Part shown: in pieces, positions 115 to 14,777 of the stretch
Numbering within the stretch: the first letter of the stretch is position 1
Layout: each line of letters opens with the position of its first letter
From: Candidatus Schekmanbacteria bacterium RIFCSPLOWO2_02_FULL_38_14
Lineage (GTDB): Bacteria > Schekmanbacteria > GWA2-38-11
Direction: 5' to 3'
DNA: 20,452 nt
Assembly: GCA_001790855.1 (NCBI GenBank)
Contig: MGDH01000041.1
Span: forward strand, 37,339 to 57,790
Program-made: the position numbers and the translations under genes
The notes under the pieces: generated by a model
What the model saw: only the letters and a program-made list of their open reading frames with translations
What the model was told of the DNA's origin: nothing
Databases searched by the model: none

Positions 115-1683
115 TCACTTCTCCGGTGGTGGTGCAAAAGGGTTTGTCTCAGGCAACGGATAACCGGGATTTGAAGTCATCCTCGGGTCAAGGAGTTTCT
201 TAAGCCCTAATACAAGTTCGTGATAGTTGCACATTGCAGGGCCTGTGATATAGTTCATTGCCCCAAGAGGCCATGAGGGATGCATTTTTTTGGCAAGCGC
301 ATCAGTGATTGTCTTTATATAACCAAGAAGAAATGCTTCACCGGCTTTAAGGTCATGTTCAAAATAAACTATTGGCTCAACCTCTGAAAAATGCCCCATC
401 TGATAGGAATTAATCCAGTCACTCTTTGTTGTGTCTTCTACAAAAAGCCCTCTCTTGTAAGCATCCTCGATAATAGGCCAGAAGATTTCACTTGATTTGA
501 TAGCGTGGTCAAGGGAATCAAAGCCAAAGCCGCCCATTACAAAGAAGTCTCCTGCAGGTCTGTAAAGCCTGTTTGAAAGCCCTGTCCTGAATGCTTCGCC
601 CATTGCATTGTAGCCTACCTTATATAGCTCTTCATCAACGAGTTTTCCACCGTGCTCCTTTATTATCTCCATCAGGACCTTTTCTTCGTACTCAACCTGT
701 CTTGCTGAGGAAAAGCCTGCAATGGTTACAGCAAGGATATTTTTCCACTTCTTCTGAAAATCAGGCCATCTCTTCCAGAACTCCTCAACTGAAGCGCAGT
801 CTGCCGCAAGTATCCAGTTTGCGCCTTCAGCGTGGACTGCCGCGCCTATCTCGCATTGGCCTATGTCATACATGGCATCGCCAACTTTTTTCTTTGATGG
901 GAAATCTATTAAAAATATCTTAAATCTGTCTTCAGGAAATTTTGCAACAAAGTTAGGATTTGCTCCTTCACAGGGAAAGACTCTCGGTCCCGGATATGAG
1001 AAAAGCTTTACAGCCATTGTTGTGACCATTCCAAGGCCTCCGCAGTGTCCGGTATCTGCCCTTACCAGTCCCTTTAAATTTAGCCCTGCGCAATCTCCCC
1101 AGAACCATCCGCCGTTTGGGACCCCTCTTGAACCGATTTTTAAAAGGTCGCCGTTCGGGAGCACCCAGTCAACGCCCAGTATTCCGCGGTTATAGCCAAA
1201 CTTGTGAGCCATTCCTCCCATTCCCTGAAACATATTGTTTGCCACAACTGAAACCTGCGAACCTGCCTCAGGTGTTGTGATTGTAAGGCCTACTTTGTGT
1301 GTTTCAGCCTGAAGCTGTGCATAGGAGACATAAGGCTCAACTACTGCATACATGTTCTTTTCATCAATATCCAGAATCCTGTTCATCCTTTTTGGGTCTA
1401 TGATTACTGTATCAGGGCGTACAGGAATTGTTGGTGGAAGAAGATTGCTTCCTACAGGAATGTAGTTGAATCCATATCTGTTGGCAATCCTGATTATTGC
1501 CTGAACTTCCTCTGTTGAAGAAGGAAGAACAACTGCTGCAGGCCTGTATTTCCCGCTCTGGGCATGGGTAATGTAGAGCAGCCACATGTAGCTGTAGGCT
1601 GTTGTTATGGCAGGATCATCGCTTATATTTTCTGGACCAAGCACATCTTCAAGTGCCTGATAAGCTCCCTTTGGTAAACTCAT
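115..1683 (-). CDS. FAD-binding oxidoreductase, VAO/GlcD-like (flavoprotein subunit 2)
   Basis: A 522-residue flavoprotein of the vanillyl-alcohol oxidase/GlcD superfamily, which oxidises alcohols, phenols or 2-hydroxyacids with FAD. An FAD-binding-4 (PCMH) domain covers roughly residues 48-215, with the usual opening (AVVLPSSTEEVQAIIRIAN) and the pyrophosphate-side region PVGSN (77-81). The C-terminal substrate/cap domain ends in LDPRMTSNPGYPLPE, close to the family's LDP..NPG ending. The ATG at 1683 has a GGAGG ribosome site at 1692-1696, 8 bases upstream. It is the last gene of a unit with the Fe-S protein and a second flavoprotein, like glcDEF. The closest-looking relatives are the PchF (4-cresol dehydrogenase flavoprotein) branch, but the substrate cannot be read from sequence. 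I see no signal peptide, so it is probably cytoplasmic and docked to the Fe-S subunit. Confidence 0.85.
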   Translation of the reverse strand: MSLPKGAYQALEDVLGPENISDDPAITTAYSYMWLLYITHAQSGKYRPAAVVLPSSTEEVQAIIRIANRYGFNYIPVGSNLLPPTIPVRPDTVIIDPKRMNRILDIDEKNMYAVVEPYVSYAQLQAETHKVGLTITTPEAGSQVSVVANNMFQGMGGMAHKFGYNRGILGVDWVLPNGDLLKIGSRGVPNGGWFWGDCAGLNLKGLVRADTGHCGGLGMVTTMAVKLFSYPGPRVFPCEGANPNFVAKFPEDRFKIFLIDFPSKKKVGDAMYDIGQCEIGAAVHAEGANWILAADCASVEEFWKRWPDFQKKWKNILAVTIAGFSSARQVEYEEKVLMEIIKEHGGKLVDEELYKVGYNAMGEAFRTGLSNRLYRPAGDFFVMGGFGFDSLDHAIKSSEIFWPIIEDAYKRGLFVEDTTKSDWINSYQMGHFSEVEPIVYFEHDLKAGEAFLLGYIKTITDALAKKMHPSWPLGAMNYITGPAMCNYHELVLGLKKLLDPRMTSNPGYPLPETNPFAPPPEK

Positions 1684-1730
1684 ATTTTTTTCCTCCCCTT
1701 ATTTTCTTATTTCTGAGTAATCACTTTAGC

Positions 1731-3008
1731 TTATTCACCTAAAGCTTCAGTTACTATGTTAATAAGGCTGATCATTTTGATTTTGTTTCCATCAGCCTTA
1801 ATCCCTTCATCAAAATTCAGCTCACACCAGGGACATGCAGTTACAAGCGCATCAGCCCCTGTTGATTTTGCCTCTTCAACTCTTTCCCTTGATGACCAGA
1901 GAGCAAACTCAGGAAAAGCAGATTTCACGCCTCCACCTGCGCCGCAGCACCACGAATATTCTCTTATCCTTTCCATCTCAACAAACTTGAGTCCCGGAAT
2001 CGCCTTTAAAATATTTCTCGGAGGGTCATAGACCCCTTTGTTTCCGAAGTTTCTTGTCCTCGGAGGGTCTGACAGACCCCATTTAGTCCTTGTCCCGTCC
2101 CATATATTCTGCGGTTCTCCACCTCTTCCCATATGGCATGGGTCGTGCCATGTTACAGTCAGCGGAACCTTTTTCTTAAAATCAAGCTTCCCTTCAATAA
2201 GCATCTTTTCTATAAGCTGTACACCCTGAACCACCTCAAAATTCATCTTCCCGATTTCAGGATAGTGGTTTGTAAAAATTCCAAAGCATCCCGCGCAGGA
2301 GGTTATTACTTTTTCAACCCCGAGTGAATTAAAGGTTTCTATATTCTTCTTAGCAAAGTCGTGGTAAACATCTTCTGCTCCAACCTTAAGCGCAGGGCTC
2401 GCGCAGCATATTTCCTTGTTACCAAGAATTCCTATGTCAAGTCCTGCTTTCAAGAGGAGTGAGAGTGTATTCTGTGCTACTATCTGTACATCAGGATTAT
2501 AGGAATAAGTACAGCCTGCATAGTAAAGGATTTTTGCTTTTTCTTTTGTAATATCCTTAACCTTAACTTTTCTTGCCCAGTTGGAGCGTCTTGTTCTTGG
2601 CTGTTGCCAGGGGTTGTCATAGTTTTTAATGCTCTCAAGCCCTGCCTTGTGTGCAGGAAGAGGTCCTTTGCCCGCCTTTACAAGTTCAATCCTTATCTGG
2701 TGCAGGATTTCAAGCGGCTCCATATCCCTTGAGAACTTGCAGGTCACATCACATCCGCCGCAAAGGGTGCAGGCATAAAGTACTTCTAACACCTTGTCTG
2801 TAACCTCGATTTCTCCCTCAAGGAGTCCTCTTATGACATCAAATCTTCCCTGCGCAGAATAAGCGTCAAACAAATACTTTGAAACCGATGGACATACCTT
2901 TGCAAACCTGTGACTCTGGGTTCTCCATGGATGAACCCATTTGCACATAGAGCATCGTTCACAGTTCACCAGATCCCATTTGTATTTTTCAAGGCTTTTC
3001 ATTATCAT
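1731..3008 (-). CDS. (Fe-S)-binding protein, GlcF/HdrD-like, two CCG domains
   Basis: An electron-transfer subunit of about 425 residues, expected to pass electrons from the flanking flavoproteins to quinone or another carrier. The N-terminus holds two ferredoxin-like motifs. The second is normal (CxxCxxCxxxC in TLCGGCDVTCK, about residues 80-90). The first is stretched: three cysteines spaced CxxCxxC (CERCSMC) and a fourth only in KVCPS about 17 residues later. Two CCG (cysteine-rich) domains follow, with YYAGCTYSYN, EICCASP, TSCAGCFG, HDPCHMGRGG and SWCCGAGGGV. I chose the ATG at 3008: GGAGG (3015-3019) lies six bases upstream of it but touches the ATG at 3014. It sits 92 bp after the first flavoprotein gene and 47 bp before the second, so it is probably one operon. 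Role inferred from GlcF, HdrD and LutA relatives. Confidence 0.87.
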   Translation of the reverse strand: MIMKSLEKYKWDLVNCERCSMCKWVHPWRTQSHRFAKVCPSVSKYLFDAYSAQGRFDVIRGLLEGEIEVTDKVLEVLYACTLCGGCDVTCKFSRDMEPLEILHQIRIELVKAGKGPLPAHKAGLESIKNYDNPWQQPRTRRSNWARKVKVKDITKEKAKILYYAGCTYSYNPDVQIVAQNTLSLLLKAGLDIGILGNKEICCASPALKVGAEDVYHDFAKKNIETFNSLGVEKVITSCAGCFGIFTNHYPEIGKMNFEVVQGVQLIEKMLIEGKLDFKKKVPLTVTWHDPCHMGRGGEPQNIWDGTRTKWGLSDPPRTRNFGNKGVYDPPRNILKAIPGLKFVEMERIREYSWCCGAGGGVKSAFPEFALWSSRERVEEAKSTGADALVTACPWCELNFDEGIKADGNKIKMISLINIVTEALGE

Positions 3009-3053
3009 CACCATCCTCCAATTTTATATATTTTATTTCAGATTTTTGTTTTC

Positions 3054-3087
3054 AGATTGCAGATTGAAAATCTTAAATCTACAATCT
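3054..3087. repeat. Nested AT-rich inverted repeat in an operon gap
   Basis: AGATTG at 3054-3059 pairs with CAATCT at 3082-3087, and inside it AGATT (3061-3065) pairs with AATCT (3069-3073). The sequence resembles the low-complexity TTTCAGATTGCAGA tract that appears again near 14823-14837. It lies between the first flavoprotein gene and the Fe-S gene. There is no T-tract, so it is not an obvious terminator; it may be a decayed repeat or a processing hairpin. Confidence 0.5.
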
Positions 3088-3106
3088 CAAATCAGCAATA
3101 TGTTCT

Positions 3107-4648
3107 TTAAAACCCAAGCTTTCCGGGATTCATTATATTATTCGGGTCTAAAAAGTCCTTCACTGTTTTTGCTGTTTTGCTGGAAATCGCATTCCTGTTA
3201 TTGACCATATAAGCCCATCTTCCATAAGCCCTTGTGAAAACACCGCCAAGGTCAATAAGCCTTTCGCTTGCAGCAAGGTGGAGTTTATTTACCATCTCTT
3301 TTTCTGCACTGTTGTTCGGGTCGTAGGGAAGATTGAACTCAAGATGTGTTGCTCTTCCGTTTTCAATGGGCTGGATGTAAACTCCTATGTCAGATACAGG
3401 GTATTCAAAACATTCAGCAGCTTCATTCATTGCTTTTATAAATTCAGGAACCCTGTTCAGCGTTGTCAGGAAAAAGATATCTGCGCTTGCCCCTCTTGGA
3501 ACATCCTTCCAGTAAAGCTCTTTTTGCCAGGGCTTTCTCATATTCTCATCAAAAAACTTTCTGGAGTGCGGCACTTCAGGAATTGTTGCCTGAGGATAAA
3601 CCCCCTGAGCCTGTGCCTCTTCAAACATATCCTGTTCCTGCCATGCAACTTTTTCCTCAGGAAGCCTTTTTGTTCCTGCAATGCAGTGGATTAATGTGAA
3701 TGATGGAAGCTTCTTTTTAAGCTCTGCATAGCCCGCAGCGCCATCTTCAGCAAGAATGGCTGCCAGATTGGCTTTGTTCAGAATAAAGCATTCATATCCA
3801 AGCCACCTGCGCTGTATCCCATATGTAAAGTTTATAAGAGTATTTAAGTCTCTTGAGGGTGTAAAGAATATCTTCTGGACTGTTGGCAATGGTTCTGCCA
3901 TCAGATTTGCCCATGTAATTATTCCAAGAGTCCCCTGAGACCGTGTGTAAAGGCGGTTCCAGTCAAAACCCGGTCCCCATGGCCCAACAAGGTCTGAGAG
4001 GGAAACTTCAGGTGGCGCAGACGCAGCAGAGCCTGTCCTGAAAATATCTCCCCTTGGAAGAACTATTTCACATGTGTAAAGCGGTTCGCTGTAGTTGAAT
4101 TCTGTAACCATCATCGGCTCACCCTCAAGATGAGCAGAAACTACTGATTTTTCCCTGTGCGGAAGAAGCGGCATTAAAGCCCTTAACCCGTTTTTCTCAA
4201 GCTCAGGCTGAAGCTCGCCGTAGGTAACACCCGGCTGGATTCTTACAGCCCTGTTCCTGCTATCAATCTTAAATATCTTCTTCCACCTGCTCAAATCTAT
4301 GACAATTCCGCTCTCAAGCGGGATTGTTGCACCGTAGAAGTGAACGCCTGAACTTGCAGGAATTAACGGAACCCTTTCTTCATTGGCAAGTTTTACTATT
4401 TTCTGAATCTCTTCTGTATTGTTTGGAAAGACTACAAAGGTAGGTTTTCTTGGGGCTTCAAGGCTTTTGTCCTTTGAATACTTTGCTAATGTTTCAGCAT
4501 CATCAATAACATTGCCTGCTCCGGCAATATCTGATAATTTTTTCCTGAGCCTTTCCTTGTATTCTTTCTTTTCTTTTAACACCTGGGAATAAGGCTTATC
4601 CTCAAGGGGTTTAATGTAATCAATCTTGGCAGGAATTTTCTCTGGCAT
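3107..4648 (-). CDS. FAD-binding oxidoreductase, VAO/4-cresol dehydrogenase-like (flavoprotein subunit 1)
   Basis: A 513-residue FAD enzyme, the promoter-proximal gene of the flavoprotein/Fe-S unit. The FAD-binding-4 domain begins near residue 70 (FVVFPNNTEEIQKIVKLAN) with the FAD-contact segment IPASSGVHFYGA (96-107) and the RIQPGVTYGEL strand. The FAD-oxidase C domain follows, and the protein ends in the family hallmark LDPNNIMNPGKLGF. The length agrees with VAO/PchF enzymes (about 520-560). The ATG at 4648 has GAGGAG at 4655-4660, six bases upstream. It is divergent enough from the other flavoprotein of the unit that the two look like distinct subunits (as GlcD and GlcE are) rather than a recent duplication. 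Candidate substrates, by family only, are 2-hydroxyacids, p-alkylphenols or aryl alcohols. No export signal is visible. Confidence 0.86.
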   Translation of the reverse strand: MPEKIPAKIDYIKPLEDKPYSQVLKEKKEYKERLRKKLSDIAGAGNVIDDAETLAKYSKDKSLEAPRKPTFVVFPNNTEEIQKIVKLANEERVPLIPASSGVHFYGATIPLESGIVIDLSRWKKIFKIDSRNRAVRIQPGVTYGELQPELEKNGLRALMPLLPHREKSVVSAHLEGEPMMVTEFNYSEPLYTCEIVLPRGDIFRTGSAASAPPEVSLSDLVGPWGPGFDWNRLYTRSQGTLGIITWANLMAEPLPTVQKIFFTPSRDLNTLINFTYGIQRRWLGYECFILNKANLAAILAEDGAAGYAELKKKLPSFTLIHCIAGTKRLPEEKVAWQEQDMFEEAQAQGVYPQATIPEVPHSRKFFDENMRKPWQKELYWKDVPRGASADIFFLTTLNRVPEFIKAMNEAAECFEYPVSDIGVYIQPIENGRATHLEFNLPYDPNNSAEKEMVNKLHLAASERLIDLGGVFTRAYGRWAYMVNNRNAISSKTAKTVKDFLDPNNIMNPGKLGF

Positions 4649-4920: not shown

Positions 4921-4948
4921 TTGACCCGATATTATATTTTCTTATATT
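4921..4948 (+). promoter_or_regulatory. Sigma-70-type promoter of the bilin-reductase-like gene
   Basis: TTGACC at 4921-4926, a 16-base spacer, then TATATT at 4943-4948. Transcription would start near 4955, giving a short leader that contains the AAGGAGG ribosome site at 4968-4974. Confidence 0.65.
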
Positions 4949-4980
4949 CTAACTATAAATCAAAGTTAAGGAGGTAGCTT

Positions 4981-5691
4981 ATGGCAGCGTTAAGAATCTA
5001 TGATTATTTTGAGAGAATGGATGAAATGATGAAAAAATCCTTCAACCCGGTTCCTAATTCTCTTAAAGATGAGTTCCTGCACAAGGAAGTTGAATTTGAA
5101 GGAAGGCTGGTTGAAAACACTGCAAGAACCTACCATGCAGAAAAGTTAAAGCATATTTCAGTATCAAAGTTTGTTTCCCATGGAGTCCTGCAGTCACACA
5201 ATATGACTATTTTTCCTGATGGAAACTATGATGTCCCTCTTTTTGGAACAGATATAGTCATATTTGAAAAGATGCTGGTTGTATACTGTGATCTGACACC
5301 CTATGTAAAAAATGAGGAAATTGTAAAAAAGTATTTGGATTCAATGAAACCACTGCACGAAAAATATAAAAACCTTCCTGACGAGATGCCGAGGGGAAGG
5401 GAGTGGCTTGAAAAAATATCTTCAGGGTTAGGCATTACAGTTACCGGCACAAATGTGGACTGTGTTGAGGATGCTTTTAAAGGGGTTACGGAGTATTTTA
5501 ATCTTTTTGCTTCCTATATCAATAAGGCAACTCCGGTAAATGAAAAGAGAAAAGCAGAAATAGCAGAGGGAAGAAAAAAAGTTATTGCGCTCTTTACTGA
5601 ATATGACCCCGGCTATGGTCCGATGAAAAAATATTTTGGCAAGGAATGGACTGACTACTACTTCCACAATGTGCTCTTTGCGGGAAATTAG
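4981..5691 (+). CDS. Ferredoxin-dependent bilin reductase homologue (PcyA/PebA/HY2 family)
   Basis: A 236-residue protein that I recognise as a ferredoxin-dependent bilin reductase. This family reduces biliverdin IX-alpha to phytobilins using electrons from ferredoxin, without a flavin or metal cofactor. Evidence: FPDGNYDVPLFGTDIV (78-93) matches FPEPLYGLPLFGCDIV of cyanobacterial PcyA, including the catalytic Asp (PcyA D105, here D91). The C-terminus FGKEWTDYYFHNVLF (219-233) reproduces the PcyA ending FG..W...Y...VLF with identical spacing. The middle (GREWLEKISSG, then EYFNLFASYINKATPV) follows the family order, and length is normal (PcyA about 245). By eye, the PcyA Glu76 position is Ser60 and PcyA His88 falls at His73/Asn74, so the product is probably not simply phycocyanobilin. 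AAGGAGG lies six bases before the ATG. No heme oxygenase, phytochrome or phycobiliprotein gene is in the window. The family call is strong; substrate and product are unknown. Confidence 0.88.
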   Translation: MAALRIYDYFERMDEMMKKSFNPVPNSLKDEFLHKEVEFEGRLVENTARTYHAEKLKHISVSKFVSHGVLQSHNMTIFPDGNYDVPLFGTDIVIFEKMLVVYCDLTPYVKNEEIVKKYLDSMKPLHEKYKNLPDEMPRGREWLEKISSGLGITVTGTNVDCVEDAFKGVTEYFNLFASYINKATPVNEKRKAEIAEGRKKVIALFTEYDPGYGPMKKYFGKEWTDYYFHNVLFAGN

Positions 5692-6018: not shown

Positions 6019-7014
6019 TTACATTATTGAACCGTGGCTATGCCCTGAGCCTTCCTCTGCAGGTGCCTCTTCTTTCTTATCTTTTTCAGCATATCTTGTT
6101 GGGTCAGATTTTACAAACTGCTCTGACGCAACTCCCTTTTCAAAAGCTTCCTTTATCCATTTTACCATGTTGGGATGTTCAACCATTCCCTTGCTTGTAT
6201 AGACAAAATCATAGTCCTCTAAAAGTTTAACCCATTTGCCACCGGGCTGGATACTTCTTATATCCTGCACCATGGGCCATACTATCAGCACCTTGCTGTC
6301 TTTTGATGCTTCTGCAAGCTGAGCCTTTATTTCATTTAATTGTTTTTCCTTGATGTCTTTTGCAGCATCATCTCTGAAGTAATTCATTATGACTCTTTTG
6401 TATGGCGATTTTTTCTTTACCTGCTCAACAAGGGCTTTTATTGCCTTGTCATAGTATGGCATTTCCCATTCATAGGTTGCGCCGTGGTCTATGATAAAGA
6501 GGGTTTCCTCTTTTGGGTTTTTTGAGAGCTCTTTTGCTCTGCCAAGAAGGATGTCTGCGATTAATGGGCTGTCAAGCCATCCATCTGAAAAATAGAATGA
6601 TGCATTTGCCTTTGCAAAGACAATTGGCTCACCCATCATTTCCCTGTCAGCAGGTTTCTGAGGTTTTGGTCCCAAGCCAAGGACGTATGCTGCCCTTGAA
6701 AGAAGCGCAGCATTCTCTTTGTTGTTAAAACAGGGAATGGCCACTATCTTGTTTACTCCCTGTGCTTCAAGTTTATTAACTGCATACTGCATTGACCCTG
6801 AAACTCCCCACGTAACACAGCAGACATAGCCAAGTTCTACAGGAACTCCTGTTGACGCCCTCACAGCATCGCGGAGTTTCTCAGCACCCTCGTTGTACGC
6901 CTGATTCCCTCCGTGCTCAAGGAGCAGAATTCCGGTCTTCTCAGCACAAAATCCTTTTGGGATAAAAGCAACAACAAAGGCAAGGCTTAAAAACAGAATC
7001 AAAAATTTTTTCAT
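6019..7014 (-). CDS. Exported two-lobed CbiX-like (sirohydrochlorin chelatase-fold) protein
   Basis: A 331-residue protein with a Sec signal peptide (MKKFLILFLSLAFVVAFIP, probable cleavage after GFCA near residue 24), so it acts in the periplasm or at the surface. The mature part has two CbiX-like halves. The first begins GILLLEHGGNQAYNEGAEKL, with His34 where CbiX has its metal/tetrapyrrole-site His in a GHGS-type motif. The second begins TLFIIDHGATYEWEMPYYDKA, with His177. Class II chelatases (CbiX, CbiK, SirB, HemH) insert Co, Ni or Fe into tetrapyrroles or are degenerate copies. The tail is charged and ends in GHSHG, a small possible metal site, as in some CbiX proteins. GGAGG at 7023-7027 lies eight bases upstream of the ATG. 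It converges on the bilin-reductase-like gene. Exported CbiK types are known in Desulfovibrio; whether this one is a chelatase or a tetrapyrrole-binding scaffold is open. Confidence 0.75.
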   Translation of the reverse strand: MKKFLILFLSLAFVVAFIPKGFCAEKTGILLLEHGGNQAYNEGAEKLRDAVRASTGVPVELGYVCCVTWGVSGSMQYAVNKLEAQGVNKIVAIPCFNNKENAALLSRAAYVLGLGPKPQKPADREMMGEPIVFAKANASFYFSDGWLDSPLIADILLGRAKELSKNPKEETLFIIDHGATYEWEMPYYDKAIKALVEQVKKKSPYKRVIMNYFRDDAAKDIKEKQLNEIKAQLAEASKDSKVLIVWPMVQDIRSIQPGGKWVKLLEDYDFVYTSKGMVEHPNMVKWIKEAFEKGVASEQFVKSDPTRYAEKDKKEEAPAEEGSGHSHGSIM

Positions 7015-7157: not shown

Positions 7158-7403
7158 ATGGCACTTAAAGCCAAGAGAATAATTTTTTTACTGGAAGAGA
7201 AACTAAGCAAAGAGTTTGATTCTTTAGTCCCCCGCGGGCAAAGAAGCAAAATAGTTAATGAAGCTTTGAGAAAAGAGCTTCTAAAACTCAAGAGGGAAAA
7301 AGCAACTGAAAAGTTGATAAAAATCCGTTCTGAAAGCCATAAGGTTTCAATCGAAGAGATTACAGAAGTTTTAAGAAAAGACAGACATAGGCATCAAAAA
7401 TGA
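7158..7403 (+). CDS. vapB: VapB-type ribbon-helix-helix antitoxin
   Basis: An 81-residue basic protein. A beta strand (AKRIIFLLEEKLSKEFDSL) and a helix-turn-helix around QRSKIVNEALRKELLKLK match ribbon-helix-helix antitoxins that bind DNA as dimers and neutralise a PIN-domain toxin with their C-terminus. The ATG has AGGAG at 7146-7150, seven bases upstream. It overlaps vapC by four bases (ATGA), the normal arrangement for co-translated toxin-antitoxin pairs. The antitoxin reading frame is intact although its toxin gene is broken. The exact antitoxin subfamily is uncertain. Confidence 0.75.
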   Translation: MALKAKRIIFLLEEKLSKEFDSLVPRGQRSKIVNEALRKELLKLKREKATEKLIKIRSESHKVSIEEITEVLRKDRHRHQK

Positions 7404-7818
7404 AACTGATAGTTCCTGATGCTTCTATTATAATAAAATGGTCTTTTAAAGAACCAGACCAGGATATTGCTTTATCAATACTAAATGGATGGCTTGAAGG
7501 TAAATTTGAAATTATCCTACCTCATCTTTGGATATTTGAAGTTGGCAATATTATAGGAATGAAAATTCCTGATTTAGCTAATGATGTAATGAATATTTTA
7601 ATAGATTATGAATTTAAAGAATGTGAAATGACAAAAAATTTATGCCAAAAGATTTTTGGTTTAATGAGAGAAATCAATGTTACCTTTTATGATGCAGCTT
7701 ACCATTAGTTTAGCAATCCAGGGAAATGGAACCTTTATAACTGCTGACAAAATATATTTTGATAAGGCTAAAAAAAAGGCATATTGGATTTTTAAGTCAG
7801 TGGGTTCGAGGTTTTTAA
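7400..7818 (+). pseudogene. vapC: vapC PIN-domain toxin gene, frameshifted
   Basis: The first 102 codons encode a PIN-domain ribonuclease: VPDASIIIKW with Asp7, then Glu47 in IFEVGNI, then Asp98 in FYDAAYH. The frame stops at a TAG at 7706-7708. Skipping one T at 7706 restores the family sequence: YDAAYH continues as SLAIQGNGTFITADKIYFDKA, including the last acidic residue (ITAD) and the final strand. The reading frame therefore carries a +1 insertion. Without repair the toxin lacks a catalytic Asp and should be inactive. The restored frame has no stop before the hairpin at 7819 and would run on to 7928 inside the next gene, so the hairpin may have replaced the original end; I end the feature there. 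A sequencing or assembly error at this site is possible. It could once have cleaved tRNA or rRNA, as VapC toxins do. Confidence 0.8.
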
Positions 7819-7841
7819 CGCAGGCTGAAGCCTGCGGCTAC
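7819..7841 (+). repeat. REP-like hairpin followed by GCTAC (copy 2)
   Basis: CGCAGGCT (7819-7826) and AGCCTGCG (7829-7836) form a perfect stem with a GA loop, followed by GCTAC (7837-7841). It has the same architecture as the copy at 23-45. It lies between the convergent broken vapC and MFS genes, and the MFS stop codon begins at the next base. Confidence 0.8.
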
Positions 7842-9029
7842 CTAATATTTTTTTTGTTTCACAACAAAAACTGCAATCAGTGCAAAGGTTGCCCATCCAA
7901 AGAAGTAAAAGGGGACTTTTATATCTGATAAGTCTGAGATAATTCCTCCCGTAGAAGGACCAATCAGATAACCGATGGAAAAAGATAAATTCCACAATCC
8001 GTAAGCCATCCCCTGCTCTCCCTGTACTGCGCCTTTTGAAATCAGAAACATCGATGTGGTGACAAGCATTCCCATTGCTATTCCCAATAAAATGAAGACA
8101 GGAATCCATGAATTAAATGATGACAGATTTACCATCATTGAAAGAGAAACAGCAGTTATCAGAGAGCCCGAAAAGATAACAGGATTTGTTCCAAACCTGC
8201 TTATTGCAATCCCGATTAATGGCTGTGCAATAGTAAGAGAGACAGAGAGAATGCCAAAGAGAAATCCAATATCGCTTTTAAGGAATGACAGTGAGTCCAT
8301 ATATAAAGGGAAAAGGACTTCTGCCATCCCAATGCAGCAGTAAATCGAGAAAATGGAGAGGCATCCAATAAAAATACCGCTGTTTTTCAATAAAAACATA
8401 ATCCCTTTTCTGCTATATGAGACAGCATCAACCTTTCCCTGTTCACGAAGTCCGACAAAAGAAGTTACAGAAAAGCACATCGCAAGAACAAAACAGATTA
8501 TAAATGGGGTTTTAAAATCTCCGACTCCGCCAATCAGAGGACCTGCTATCAAACCAAGTCCAAAGGCTGTGCTGATAAGGCTTATCTCAAGTCCTTTTCT
8601 TTTTGACCCTTCTGTTGCCCTGCTTGCCAGAGGCTGTGCAGCAACCCAGGCAATTGCCGAGGCTACACCCTGAAATGCCCTTGCTGTGACTAATATCCAG
8701 ATAGAGGTTGTGAATATGAGTGTCAGAGAGGAAACTGCAAGGCAGAGCATCCCGAGACCTATTACAAGCCCATTCCTTCCGACCTTGTCAACAAAATACC
8801 CGAAAGGGAGAATGACAAGGATGAAAGCTACAGAGTAGGCTGAAAGCGCCAATCCTATTTGCGCATCAGATGCCTTTAAAAGTTTTGCAAAGATTGGAAC
8901 ACTCGGCGTTATTACCCCATAGCCAACCATATCAGTAAAAATTACACCACAGCAGATAAGGAGAGTGAAGATGCGAGAAAATCTGTTTGGATTATTGGAA
9001 TTTTGGATTTGGATTTTTCCATTTGACAT
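7842..9029 (-). CDS. MFS transporter, DHA1-type drug/metabolite exporter
   Basis: A 395-residue major facilitator with about 12 hydrophobic segments. The motif-A loop between segments 2 and 3 is GYFVDKVGRNGL (D..GR), typical of proton-driven antiporters of the DHA1/TetA-like group; segment 5 has GLIAGPLIGG (motif C-like), the antiporter signature. The substrate is unknown. It follows a second MFS gene by nine bases on the same strand, so the two are co-transcribed, probably from the nadE promoter. The start is uncertain: the first 15 residues (MSNGKIQIQNSNNPN) come from a low-complexity ATCCAAAAT tract, the ATG has no ribosome site, and membrane segment 1 begins only near residue 20. The 3' end abuts a hairpin repeat. 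Confidence 0.85.
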   Translation of the reverse strand: MSNGKIQIQNSNNPNRFSRIFTLLICCGVIFTDMVGYGVITPSVPIFAKLLKASDAQIGLALSAYSVAFILVILPFGYFVDKVGRNGLVIGLGMLCLAVSSLTLIFTTSIWILVTARAFQGVASAIAWVAAQPLASRATEGSKRKGLEISLISTAFGLGLIAGPLIGGVGDFKTPFIICFVLAMCFSVTSFVGLREQGKVDAVSYSRKGIMFLLKNSGIFIGCLSIFSIYCCIGMAEVLFPLYMDSLSFLKSDIGFLFGILSVSLTIAQPLIGIAISRFGTNPVIFSGSLITAVSLSMMVNLSSFNSWIPVFILLGIAMGMLVTTSMFLISKGAVQGEQGMAYGLWNLSFSIGYLIGPSTGGIISDLSDIKVPFYFFGWATFALIAVFVVKQKKY

Positions 9030-12286: not shown

Positions 12287-13393
12287 ATGCAAAAAAATTT
12301 AGATAAGATTTTGAAGGATATCAGTTCTGGCAAGACTGCTCCTGTGTACCTTCTTTTTGGAGAAGACGGGTATTTTGTTAATGAGGCTTTTAAAAAACTT
12401 TTAGATAGTTTTGTCCCTGAAGAGGACAGGTCTTTAAATCTGGAAATCTTTAAGGGTGAAAAATTAGACTTAGATGCTGTGATAATAGGGCTTTCATCCT
12501 ATCCATTTTTGGCAGGCCACAAGGTTGTTGCACTCTTAGACCAGGAGATGCCGGCTTCAACTTCCCCGGATTTTGATTTGCTCCTTGAATGCCTTGAGAA
12601 AAATATCCCGCCTCAGAACCATTTAATCATAGCAACATCAAAGACTGTTGATAAGAGAACCGTTCTGTTTAAAAAGATTAAAGAAATCGGCGAGATTTTT
12701 GCATTTGAAGAAGAAGATGCAAGAGACAGATATTCCAGCTTCAGAGATAAAATTAATGAGAGAGTAACCAGTGAAGGTAAAAAAATCACAGGGGAGGCAT
12801 TTGACAGTTTGATAGACAGGACCGGGTTTGATGCGCGCCTGATATTTGCAGAAATTGAAAAACTCCTGAACTTTGCAGGTGACAAGAAAATAATCGATAA
12901 AAGCGATGTAGATGCAGTTGTTCCTGTAACAAGGCAGCAGGTAATATTTACTCTTCTTGACGCAATGAGCAGAAGGGATAAAAAAATCGCTTTTGATATA
13001 CTTGAAAGACTTTTATCAGAGGGGGAAGAGCCAATAAAGATTAATCACATGATGGCAAGGCAGATAAGGCTTTTACTGCAGGCAAAAGAGCTTCTGGAGA
13101 CTGAGCATTTGAAAAAGTTCAACGAGAATTCCCAGTTTCCTCTTTTTCAAAAACTTTTTGGGAACAGAATAGAAGAATTCAGGGACAGATACAAGGAGGA
13201 TTCTTATAATCTTTTTTCATATAAGCCTTTTTATGTTTTCAATGTATCAAGGCTTGCTTCCAAATGGGATAAGGAATCGCTTTTAAAAAGTTTCAAATTC
13301 CTGCATCATGCTGATATGGATTTGAAAAGTTCAGGCAATGAGCAGGGAAAATTGATTTTACAGAAATTGATTCTTAATCTTGGGCAGGAGTGA
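12287..13393 (+). CDS. holA: DNA polymerase III subunit delta (clamp loader)
   Basis: A 368-residue clamp-loader subunit that opens the beta sliding clamp during replication. The opening APVYLLFGEDGYFVNEAFKKLL is the HolA signature (PVYLL.G.E.yl..ea), and SSYPFLAGHKVVAL follows as the N-terminal ATPase-like fold's next strand (family pattern: FF...RvV.l). The middle helical domain has GFDARLIFAEIEKLLNFAGDKK, and the C-terminal domain MARQIRLLLQAKEL, which packs against delta-prime and tau. Length is usual (about 340). The stop codon overlaps the ribosome site region of holB, so both clamp-loader genes are co-expressed. The ribosome site before the ATG is weak (purine-rich GAAAAAG). Confidence 0.92.
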   Translation: MQKNLDKILKDISSGKTAPVYLLFGEDGYFVNEAFKKLLDSFVPEEDRSLNLEIFKGEKLDLDAVIIGLSSYPFLAGHKVVALLDQEMPASTSPDFDLLLECLEKNIPPQNHLIIATSKTVDKRTVLFKKIKEIGEIFAFEEEDARDRYSSFRDKINERVTSEGKKITGEAFDSLIDRTGFDARLIFAEIEKLLNFAGDKKIIDKSDVDAVVPVTRQQVIFTLLDAMSRRDKKIAFDILERLLSEGEEPIKINHMMARQIRLLLQAKELLETEHLKKFNENSQFPLFQKLFGNRIEEFRDRYKEDSYNLFSYKPFYVFNVSRLASKWDKESLLKSFKFLHHADMDLKSSGNEQGKLILQKLILNLGQE

Positions 13394-13397
13394 AGAG

Positions 13398-14777
13398 TTG
13401 AATACCATTGGTTTTGAGCATATAACAGGGCAGGAAATTGCAGTTTCACACCTGAGGTCCCTGCTGAATAAGGACTCCTGTGCGGGAGCATATCTTTTTA
13501 CAGGACAGGAAGGAATCGGCAAAAAGATTTCTGCAATATCTTTTGCAAAAGCCCTTGTCTGCCACAAGGCATCTCCTGACCCCTGCAATGAGTGCGTTTC
13601 CTGCAAGAAGATTTCCAGCGCACTTTTTTTCCATCCAGATATTACCCTTTACCACGATGTTTATAATCCTGTAGGAATTCCAAGATTTATTTCTTTAAAG
13701 AAGATGGGATATGAAGGAGACGAGTCTTTAAAAGGAGAAGATGTCTATTTAGAAGCCTGCAAACTGCTTAAGAAAAAGGAACTTCTGTTAAATCCTGTAA
13801 GTTCTGAAAAAGGGGTTGAGACAGTAGATTTTTTTTATCTTAACCCGGCTAAATTGTTTGTTGAAAAAGACGGGAAGACATATATCTCTTCATCTCTGAT
13901 TGAATCAAGCCTTGAGCCGCTCATCAGGGAAAATTCCTCTGCCCACGTCCTTGCAAAATGGCTTTATACCTTTACTAAGGGATTCTACAAACAGAGCTTT
14001 AAAGTCGGAGAGCAGGAGGGAGAGGATGGAAGGGAAAATGTCAGGGGAATTATAAAAGATATTTATCTGAAGCCGTCAGAGGGGAAAAGAAAGGTTTTTA
14101 TAATTGATGATGCCCACAAGATTACTGAAGTTGCAGCAGATGCGTTCCTTAAAACCCTTGAAGAACCTCCAAAGGATTCAGTGATAATACTGATTACTTC
14201 AAAGCCTGAGATGTTGCTTCAGACAATCCGCTCCCGGTGCAAAAAGATCAAATTCCAGCCAATCGGAAAGAAATCAATCTGTGAGTTTATCAGGAAAACT
14301 AAAAACCTCGGCTATGAAGATTCCCTTCTTGTTGCATCGTTTTCTCAGGGAAGTCTTGGCAGGGCATTGGAGATGAATCTTGACGAGGTTTTGGAAAAAA
14401 GGCAGGAGATAATCAATCTTACTTCGCAGGACAGTTTGAAAAACACGAGCAGGTTTTTCCATTTTGCAAGGGTATTTTCAGGAGAGGGCAAGGAGGACAG
14501 AAGGCATAAAATAAATTCAACTCAGGAGTTTATTGAGCTGATGCTTTCGTGGGTTCGCGACCTGATTCTGGTTAAAAGAGACGGGGACAGGGAAATGGTT
14601 ATAAATTTTGATAAGATTGATGAACTTAAAAAGATATCCAATAAATACAGTTTTGAGAAGTTAGAAACTATCTTTTCAATTTTTTCAGGAGCAAGCCGGC
14701 TTCTTTCAAGAAATGTTGATGTAAGGATTATGATTGAGTCCTGCCTCGTGGAAATGAAAGAAGTAGTTAGTTGTTAG
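13398..14777 (+). CDS. holB: DNA polymerase III subunit delta-prime, with large internal insertion
   Basis: The clamp-loader delta-prime subunit, an AAA+ protein. I chose the TTG at 13398 because AGGAG (13386-13390) lies seven bases upstream, just before the holA stop; the in-frame TTG at 13380 has no such site. The product is about 459 residues, well above the usual 310-340. Domain 1 begins FEHITGQEIAVSHL, with a P-loop FTGQEGIGKK (about 35-43) and zinc-binding cysteines at about 55, 63, 66 and 69 (CNECVSCKK). Normally the next block is HPD followed by a short linker to the KRKVFIIDDAHKITE strand; here about 120 residues (roughly 88-208) intervene. After the insertion the family order resumes: DAFLKTLEEPPKDSVIILITS and IRSRCKKIKF. 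The insertion has no motif I recognise. Confidence 0.9.
   Translation: MNTIGFEHITGQEIAVSHLRSLLNKDSCAGAYLFTGQEGIGKKISAISFAKALVCHKASPDPCNECVSCKKISSALFFHPDITLYHDVYNPVGIPRFISLKKMGYEGDESLKGEDVYLEACKLLKKKELLLNPVSSEKGVETVDFFYLNPAKLFVEKDGKTYISSSLIESSLEPLIRENSSAHVLAKWLYTFTKGFYKQSFKVGEQEGEDGRENVRGIIKDIYLKPSEGKRKVFIIDDAHKITEVAADAFLKTLEEPPKDSVIILITSKPEMLLQTIRSRCKKIKFQPIGKKSICEFIRKTKNLGYEDSLLVASFSQGSLGRALEMNLDEVLEKRQEIINLTSQDSLKNTSRFFHFARVFSGEGKEDRRHKINSTQEFIELMLSWVRDLILVKRDGDREMVINFDKIDELKKISNKYSFEKLETIFSIFSGASRLLSRNVDVRIMIESCLVEMKEVVSC

Follow-up and report, generated by a model that had tools for sequence, protein, structure and literature searches.

A conserved bilin reductase homologue of Candidatus Schekmanbacteria belongs to a large paralogous family without recognisable heme oxygenase partners

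The stretch of DNA analysed here (the window, 20,452 nucleotides) comes from contig MGDH01000041.1 of Candidatus Schekmanbacteria bacterium RIFCSPLOWO2_02_FULL_38_14, a sediment bacterium whose assembly is 2.68 Mb in length and 99.4% complete. It carries a gene of the FDBR (bilin reductase) family, identified by its PF05996 match, its AlphaFold2 model and its orthologues, together with a convergent neighbour and a transporter gene found by tblastn approximately 2.1 kb away. The features discussed below are as follows:

4921..4948, plus strand: candidate sigma-70-like promoter, TTGACC-16-TATATT (10/12 consensus positions)
4968..4975, plus strand: Shine-Dalgarno sequence AAGGAGGT, 5 nt upstream of the ATG, read from the sequence
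4981..5691, plus strand: FDBR-family gene (group A), 236 aa
5200..5202, plus strand: codon of Asn74, at the PcyA His88 position; Asn as in PebA and PebB
5251..5253, plus strand: codon of Asp91, equivalent to PcyA Asp105 and GtPEBB Asp99
5605..5607, plus strand: codon of Asp209, equivalent to GtPEBB Asp219
6019..7014, minus strand: CbiX-like protein with a signal-peptide-like N-terminus (PF01903, 22.1 bits against a cut-off of 22); convergent neighbour
7842..9029, minus strand: MFS transporter (DHA1/TetA-like)

The gene has its own ribosome site, as a preliminary description of this DNA had stated. The promoter that the same description assigned to it is retained only as a weak candidate, because sigma-70-like boxes are frequent in this AT-rich stretch (10 found versus 3.9 expected). 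The encoded protein matches PF05996 (Fe_bilin_red) with an E value of 8.1e-32 and 111 bits (cut-off 31) in the HMM search that had been proposed as a check, and the alignment is full-length (residues 13-233, profile positions 4-227 of 228); a chance resemblance is excluded. The best matches in a sequence search of the PDB are GtPEBB (6e-18), PebA (2e-12) and PcyA (3e-9), with HY2 matched too. Both sequence blocks on which the preliminary description was built (PLFG.DIV with its Asp, and an FG..W...Y...VLF ending) are present at PcyA spacing: PLFGTDIV occupies residues 86-93 and includes Asp91, and the C-terminal block FGKEWTDYYFHNVLF occupies residues 219-233. Orthologues with approximately 72% and 69% identity (up to 73%) occur in two other Schekmanbacteria genera. 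Comparison with these gives pN values of 0.16-0.18 and pS values of 0.73-0.85, and the gene is therefore under purifying selection. This protein is a genuine, well-conserved FDBR homologue.

Among named records that contain an orthologue, the nearest (72%) is that of Candidatus Schekmanbacteria bacterium GWA2_38_11, whose genome is in the same family as that of the window. This match and the kinship with Schekmanbacteria indicate that the window is not cyanobacterial, and contamination was rejected: orthologues in Schekmanbacteria genomes are 69-73% identical, versus 19-24% for cyanobacterial FDBRs. Phage and plasmid origins were likewise rejected, as phage and IMG/VR matches are PcyA-type and merely 23-25% identical and the sole plasmid matches are cyanobacterial FDBRs (PebA/PebB, 23-27%). 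The proposal of a bilin reductase homologue in a non-cyanobacterial host is thus borne out by the orthologues. The host is apparently non-photosynthetic, a description based on its kinship and on missing phycobiliprotein and phytochrome matches rather than on photosystem or (bacterio)chlorophyll genes. The sole COX1-like ORF seen in the window's genome has 136 aa (L092:5561-5968, minus strand); the three relatives have full-length heme-copper oxidases.

An AlphaFold2 model (pLDDT 85.7, pTM 0.85), for which the window protein was combined with six phage homologues and two relatives from Schekmanbacteria, predicts a seven-stranded alpha/beta/alpha sandwich that superposes on solved FDBRs. This agrees with the fold anticipated in the preliminary description. 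Bilin reductases take the first places among solved structures, with GtPEBB (Z 27.3, 2.0 Å over 230 residues) ahead of PcyA (Z 25.7), PebA (25.0) and HY2 (24.4); RCCR (22.6) and CPOX (18.3) come next.

Residue equivalences were taken from an alignment with PcyA, PebA, PebB and GtPEBB, and so refer to sequence positions and not to a three-dimensional pocket. Asn74, Asp91 and Asp209 align with the corresponding residues of PebA, PebB and GtPEBB and are invariant throughout group A. In known FDBRs the GtPEBB Asp99 position is the proton donor, and Asp219 is a second catalytic Asp; both are essential in GtPEBB (PMC6755814). The window protein has Ser62 and Asn74 in place of PcyA Glu76 and His88, the residues by which PcyA is recognised. 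Its active site is therefore like that of PebA, PebB and pre-2, and the earlier label "PcyA-type" does not hold. According to PMC10151467, PcyA Glu76 is needed for reduction of the 18-vinyl group; lacking it, the window protein should not reduce this group or make phycocyanobilin. Nor is it a copy of PebB, since the position of GtPEBB Arg215 is Phe205 rather than Arg. Overall, it resembles PebA, PebB and GtPEBB in profile, fold (Z 25-27), size, the Asn and both catalytic Asps, and a C-terminal FG..W..YY...LF block, but identity to these enzymes is 20-24% and, in contrast to their systems, its genome has neither phycobiliproteins nor a recognisable heme oxygenase.

The preliminary description had found no phycobiliprotein gene nearby, and this observation extends to all four Schekmanbacteria genomes searched. 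Heme oxygenase (PF01126) gave no match in any of them at E 0.1, with a positive Synechococcus control, and Phycobilisome (PF00502), V4R (PF02830) and PHY (PF00360, phytochrome) gave none either; the heme oxygenase and phytochrome genes for which the preliminary description had proposed a search were thus not recovered in these genomes. For phycobiliproteins and BBAG proteins, the search covered matches to the PF00502 profile. Anaerobic heme opening by ChuW/HutW (TIGR04107) was rejected, as the four genomes match only below the cut-off (190 bits versus 400), as do all 14 control genomes, and the top-scoring protein of the window's genome is HemW. A PF01126 companion gene is a usual rather than a strict criterion for an FDBR, and lack of a profile match is not lack of function: a divergent heme oxygenase may be present.

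We favour the reading that the window protein is a ferredoxin-dependent, cofactor-free radical reductase of an open-chain tetrapyrrole, without a recognisable heme oxygenase supply, and give it a probability of roughly 60%. By analogy with the mechanism of the FDBR family (PMC6755814; PMC10151467), a low-potential ferredoxin would deliver single electrons to a conjugated molecule, probably an open-chain tetrapyrrole, bound between the C-terminal helices and the seven-stranded sheet. The reaction would run through a substrate radical: Asp91 would protonate the substrate, Asn74 and Asp209 would arrange the water or protons needed in the second step, and the outcome would be a two-electron reduction. 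A bilin substrate is suggested by the family and the active site, these being the lines of evidence available because no bilin-binding or bilin-making partner was found; the independent bilin pathway considered in the preliminary description is likewise no more than possible. With no recognisable supply enzyme, an imported or unusual substrate is plausible, and the cell would either take it up or produce it by a pathway not recognised here. The MFS transporter could carry substrate or product. In each of the three genomes with group A, tblastn places the transporter gene near it: downstream with a 14 bp overlap in G003 (L041) and approximately 2 kb away in G001 (L029), as in the window. The transporter resembles drug/metabolite efflux pumps and scores below every named cut-off. 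The CbiX-like neighbour was rejected as a tetrapyrrole clue, as its match is borderline and it was not found near group A elsewhere.

The window gene is one of a family. PF05996 genes number 3, 3, 12 and 8 in the four genomes (counts based on profile searches and single stretches), three of which are 97-99% complete and the fourth, G001, 70%. The 26 paralogues are stand-alone proteins of approximately 230-245 aa and fall into about 11 old orthologous groups, with strong support for each multi-member group. Most groups are common to several genera, and groups A and B occur in both families of the phylum. Outside the phylum, PF05996 was found in 4 of 382 genomes, with three strong PcyA-type matches and one weak match. 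The latter (L078, in G249, an unrelated 5.2-Mb genome; 33.6 bits) is very divergent and possibly RCCR-like. Some paralogues are clustered: 6 of the 8 FDBR-like genes of G003 lie on one contig, C7 (binomial P 2e-4), and 4 of the 12 in G002 lie on a 25 kb contig, also designated C7 (L032; P 3e-6).

The catalytic positions differ from group to group. Both Asps are kept in groups B (where the third position is Asn or Thr), E and K, groups D and G have an RCCR-like Glu and Asp, group C has Glu plus Glu or Ser, and in groups F, H, I and J the primary acid is replaced by Asn or Tyr. This variation suggests that the chemistry of the paralogues has probably diverged. The FDBR fold might have been recruited in this phylum to reduce, with electrons from ferredoxin, conjugated molecules other than tetrapyrroles, and the window gene might be among these cases. 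For the window gene we regard this as unlikely, if the strongest of the alternatives. It would explain why a genome can hold as many as 12 paralogues and no heme oxygenase match, and why four groups have lost the primary acid. It also fits the neighbours of several paralogues, which include SdhA-like and other FAD flavoproteins, DUF169 and SDR proteins and an O-methyltransferase and hint at possible further substrates for the family. Group A, however, has the full FDBR residue set and a predicted structure nearest to GtPEBB, and group D lies beside a CPOX-like gene in G002, a tetrapyrrole theme. In both of its genomes, group D also adjoins a NIR_SIR-ferredoxin protein; group C lies next to a B12-binding radical SAM protein. 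A protochlorophyllide-reductase-like reading of the group D and H neighbours was discarded, as Pfam gives NIR_SIR and Fer4. DUF169 proteins were seen within two genes of groups H and I (L038, L039, L045), with Pfam confirmation for L045 and assignment by eye for the others.

A second alternative is a classical bilin pathway whose heme oxygenase has diverged beyond the reach of PF01126 or is absent from the assemblies, and whose phytobilin product serves a photoreceptor or globin that escapes recognition. Heme oxygenases can be mutually unrecognisable (PMC10151467). Phytochromobilin is also the product of the pre-2 enzyme CAP_1520, whose clade shares its Asn and Asp with the window protein. Against this stand the high completeness of three of the four genomes, none of the four with a PF01126 match, and the missing PHY, PF00502 and V4R matches; we consider such a pathway improbable. 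Scavenging of an RCCR-like kind, in which the protein would detoxify or use chlorophyll catabolites from sediment, where chlorophyll debris is abundant, is very improbable: a profile of the 26 paralogues finds RCCR in the PDB (E 2e-9), 6 of the 26 match PF06405 (RCC_reductase) weakly (E 0.1) and an MFS transporter is linked, but the window protein itself has no PF06405 match at E 1, and carries Asp rather than the Glu of RCCR at position 91. A search for Stay-green (PF12638, Mg-dechelatase) gave no match but rang in no control either, and so carries no weight.

The RCCR matches of the paralogue profile and of the six members indicate that the family as a whole bridges FDBR and RCCR, which share a fold. 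This fits the placement of Schekmanbacteria sequences in PMC10151467, where the FDBR/RCCR-like sequences noted by Rockwell and Lagarias (its ref. 7) seemed to lie between FDBR and RCCR and then fell in an outgroup on the RCCR side. Those sequences very probably belong to the same family as the paralogues described here. In our trees, which contain no pre-PcyA sequences, the backbone was not resolved when RCCR was included, and group A could be placed neither with FDBRs nor with the other paralogues. Without RCCR, neither a single clade of all Schekmanbacteria sequences (AU p 0.298) nor a union of group A with known FDBRs (AU p 0.19) was rejected. Because the deep order is not resolved, the ancestral lineage suggested in the preliminary description is neither shown nor excluded.

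The window protein shares with the pre-PcyA enzymes (pre-1, pre-2 and pre-3) its status as an FDBR homologue in a non-photosynthetic bacterium and, with pre-2, the Asn and Asp. In PMC10151467, the gene cluster of pre-1 and pre-3 comprises heme oxygenase, Fe-S, V4R and BBAG proteins, and that of pre-2 a globin and a B12 protein; none of these genes is among the window's neighbours. The Schekmanbacteria family differs further in being multi-copy, in lacking heme oxygenase, V4R and PF00502 (phycobiliprotein-like globin) matches in the four genomes, and in its position outside the pre-PcyA clade in the tree of PMC10151467. The suggestion of a "pre-PcyA type" is therefore not upheld.

Phycobilisomes and plant phytochromes owe their pigments to bilin reductases, the origin of which is debated. 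As argued in PMC10151467, PcyA derived from heterotroph enzymes found beside heme oxygenase and bilin-binding globins, and all known relatives of the FDBR, RCCR and CPOX fold are ultimately oxygen-dependent. That paper was the only one in the literature searched to name both Schekmanbacteria and bilin, and its main text is silent on the copy number, residues, partners and activity of the Schekmanbacteria sequences. The presence of FDBR-like sequences in the phylum is thus already known; we did not find the scale of the family in print, and the interest lies in this scale, in the lack of recognised partners and in the divergence of the active sites. As many as 12 genes of this fold in one genome, without a recognisable heme oxygenase or bilin-binding protein, would point either to an extensive group of reductases yet to be explored or to a fold older and broader than bilin chemistry.

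Beyond the favoured reading of the window protein as an open-chain tetrapyrrole reductase, we tentatively suggest, at less than even odds, that numerous reductases of the FDBR/RCCR fold form a heme oxygenase-independent system in the phylum, alongside a parallel CPOX-like set, and act on tetrapyrroles or on compounds new to the fold. If so, the FDBR fold would not be tied to oxygen-dependent breakdown of heme or chlorophyll, which would contradict the published view. The window gene offers a good starting point, as only group A joins conservation across three genera with a full catalytic set in every member. CPOX-like (PF01218) genes number 3, 2, 4 and 7 in the four genomes; the one protein compared with NCBIfam scored 181 bits against a cut-off of 297. 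CPOX (HemF) resembles the window protein in overall fold, but its reaction differs and there is no significant sequence kinship: with an hhalign probability of 17%, only the shared fold is claimed for the FDBR-like and CPOX-like families. Several of the CPOX-like loci (L082, L083, L084-L087, L090 and L091) are far from typical HemF. One further CPOX-like match in G003 (L047:13521-14441, minus strand) has a signal-peptide-like ORF start, which suggests an exported protein.

Elsewhere in the window, a three-gene operon at 115-4648 (minus strand), divergent from the FDBR gene, has an Fe-S/CCG protein gene flanked on either side by one for a GlcD-like FAD protein and is heterodisulfide-reductase/glycolate-oxidase-like. 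A pair at 7158-7928 (plus strand) appears toxin-antitoxin-like by eye, with an 81 aa protein followed by a PIN-like protein of 102 aa whose frame seems to run on in another frame near 7700; the two parts tested gave no Pfam match. A DNA polymerase III delta-prime-like gene (PF13177) at 13380-14774 (plus strand) has an insertion-like segment of approximately 120 aa between the end of its zinc module and the IIDDAHK motif.
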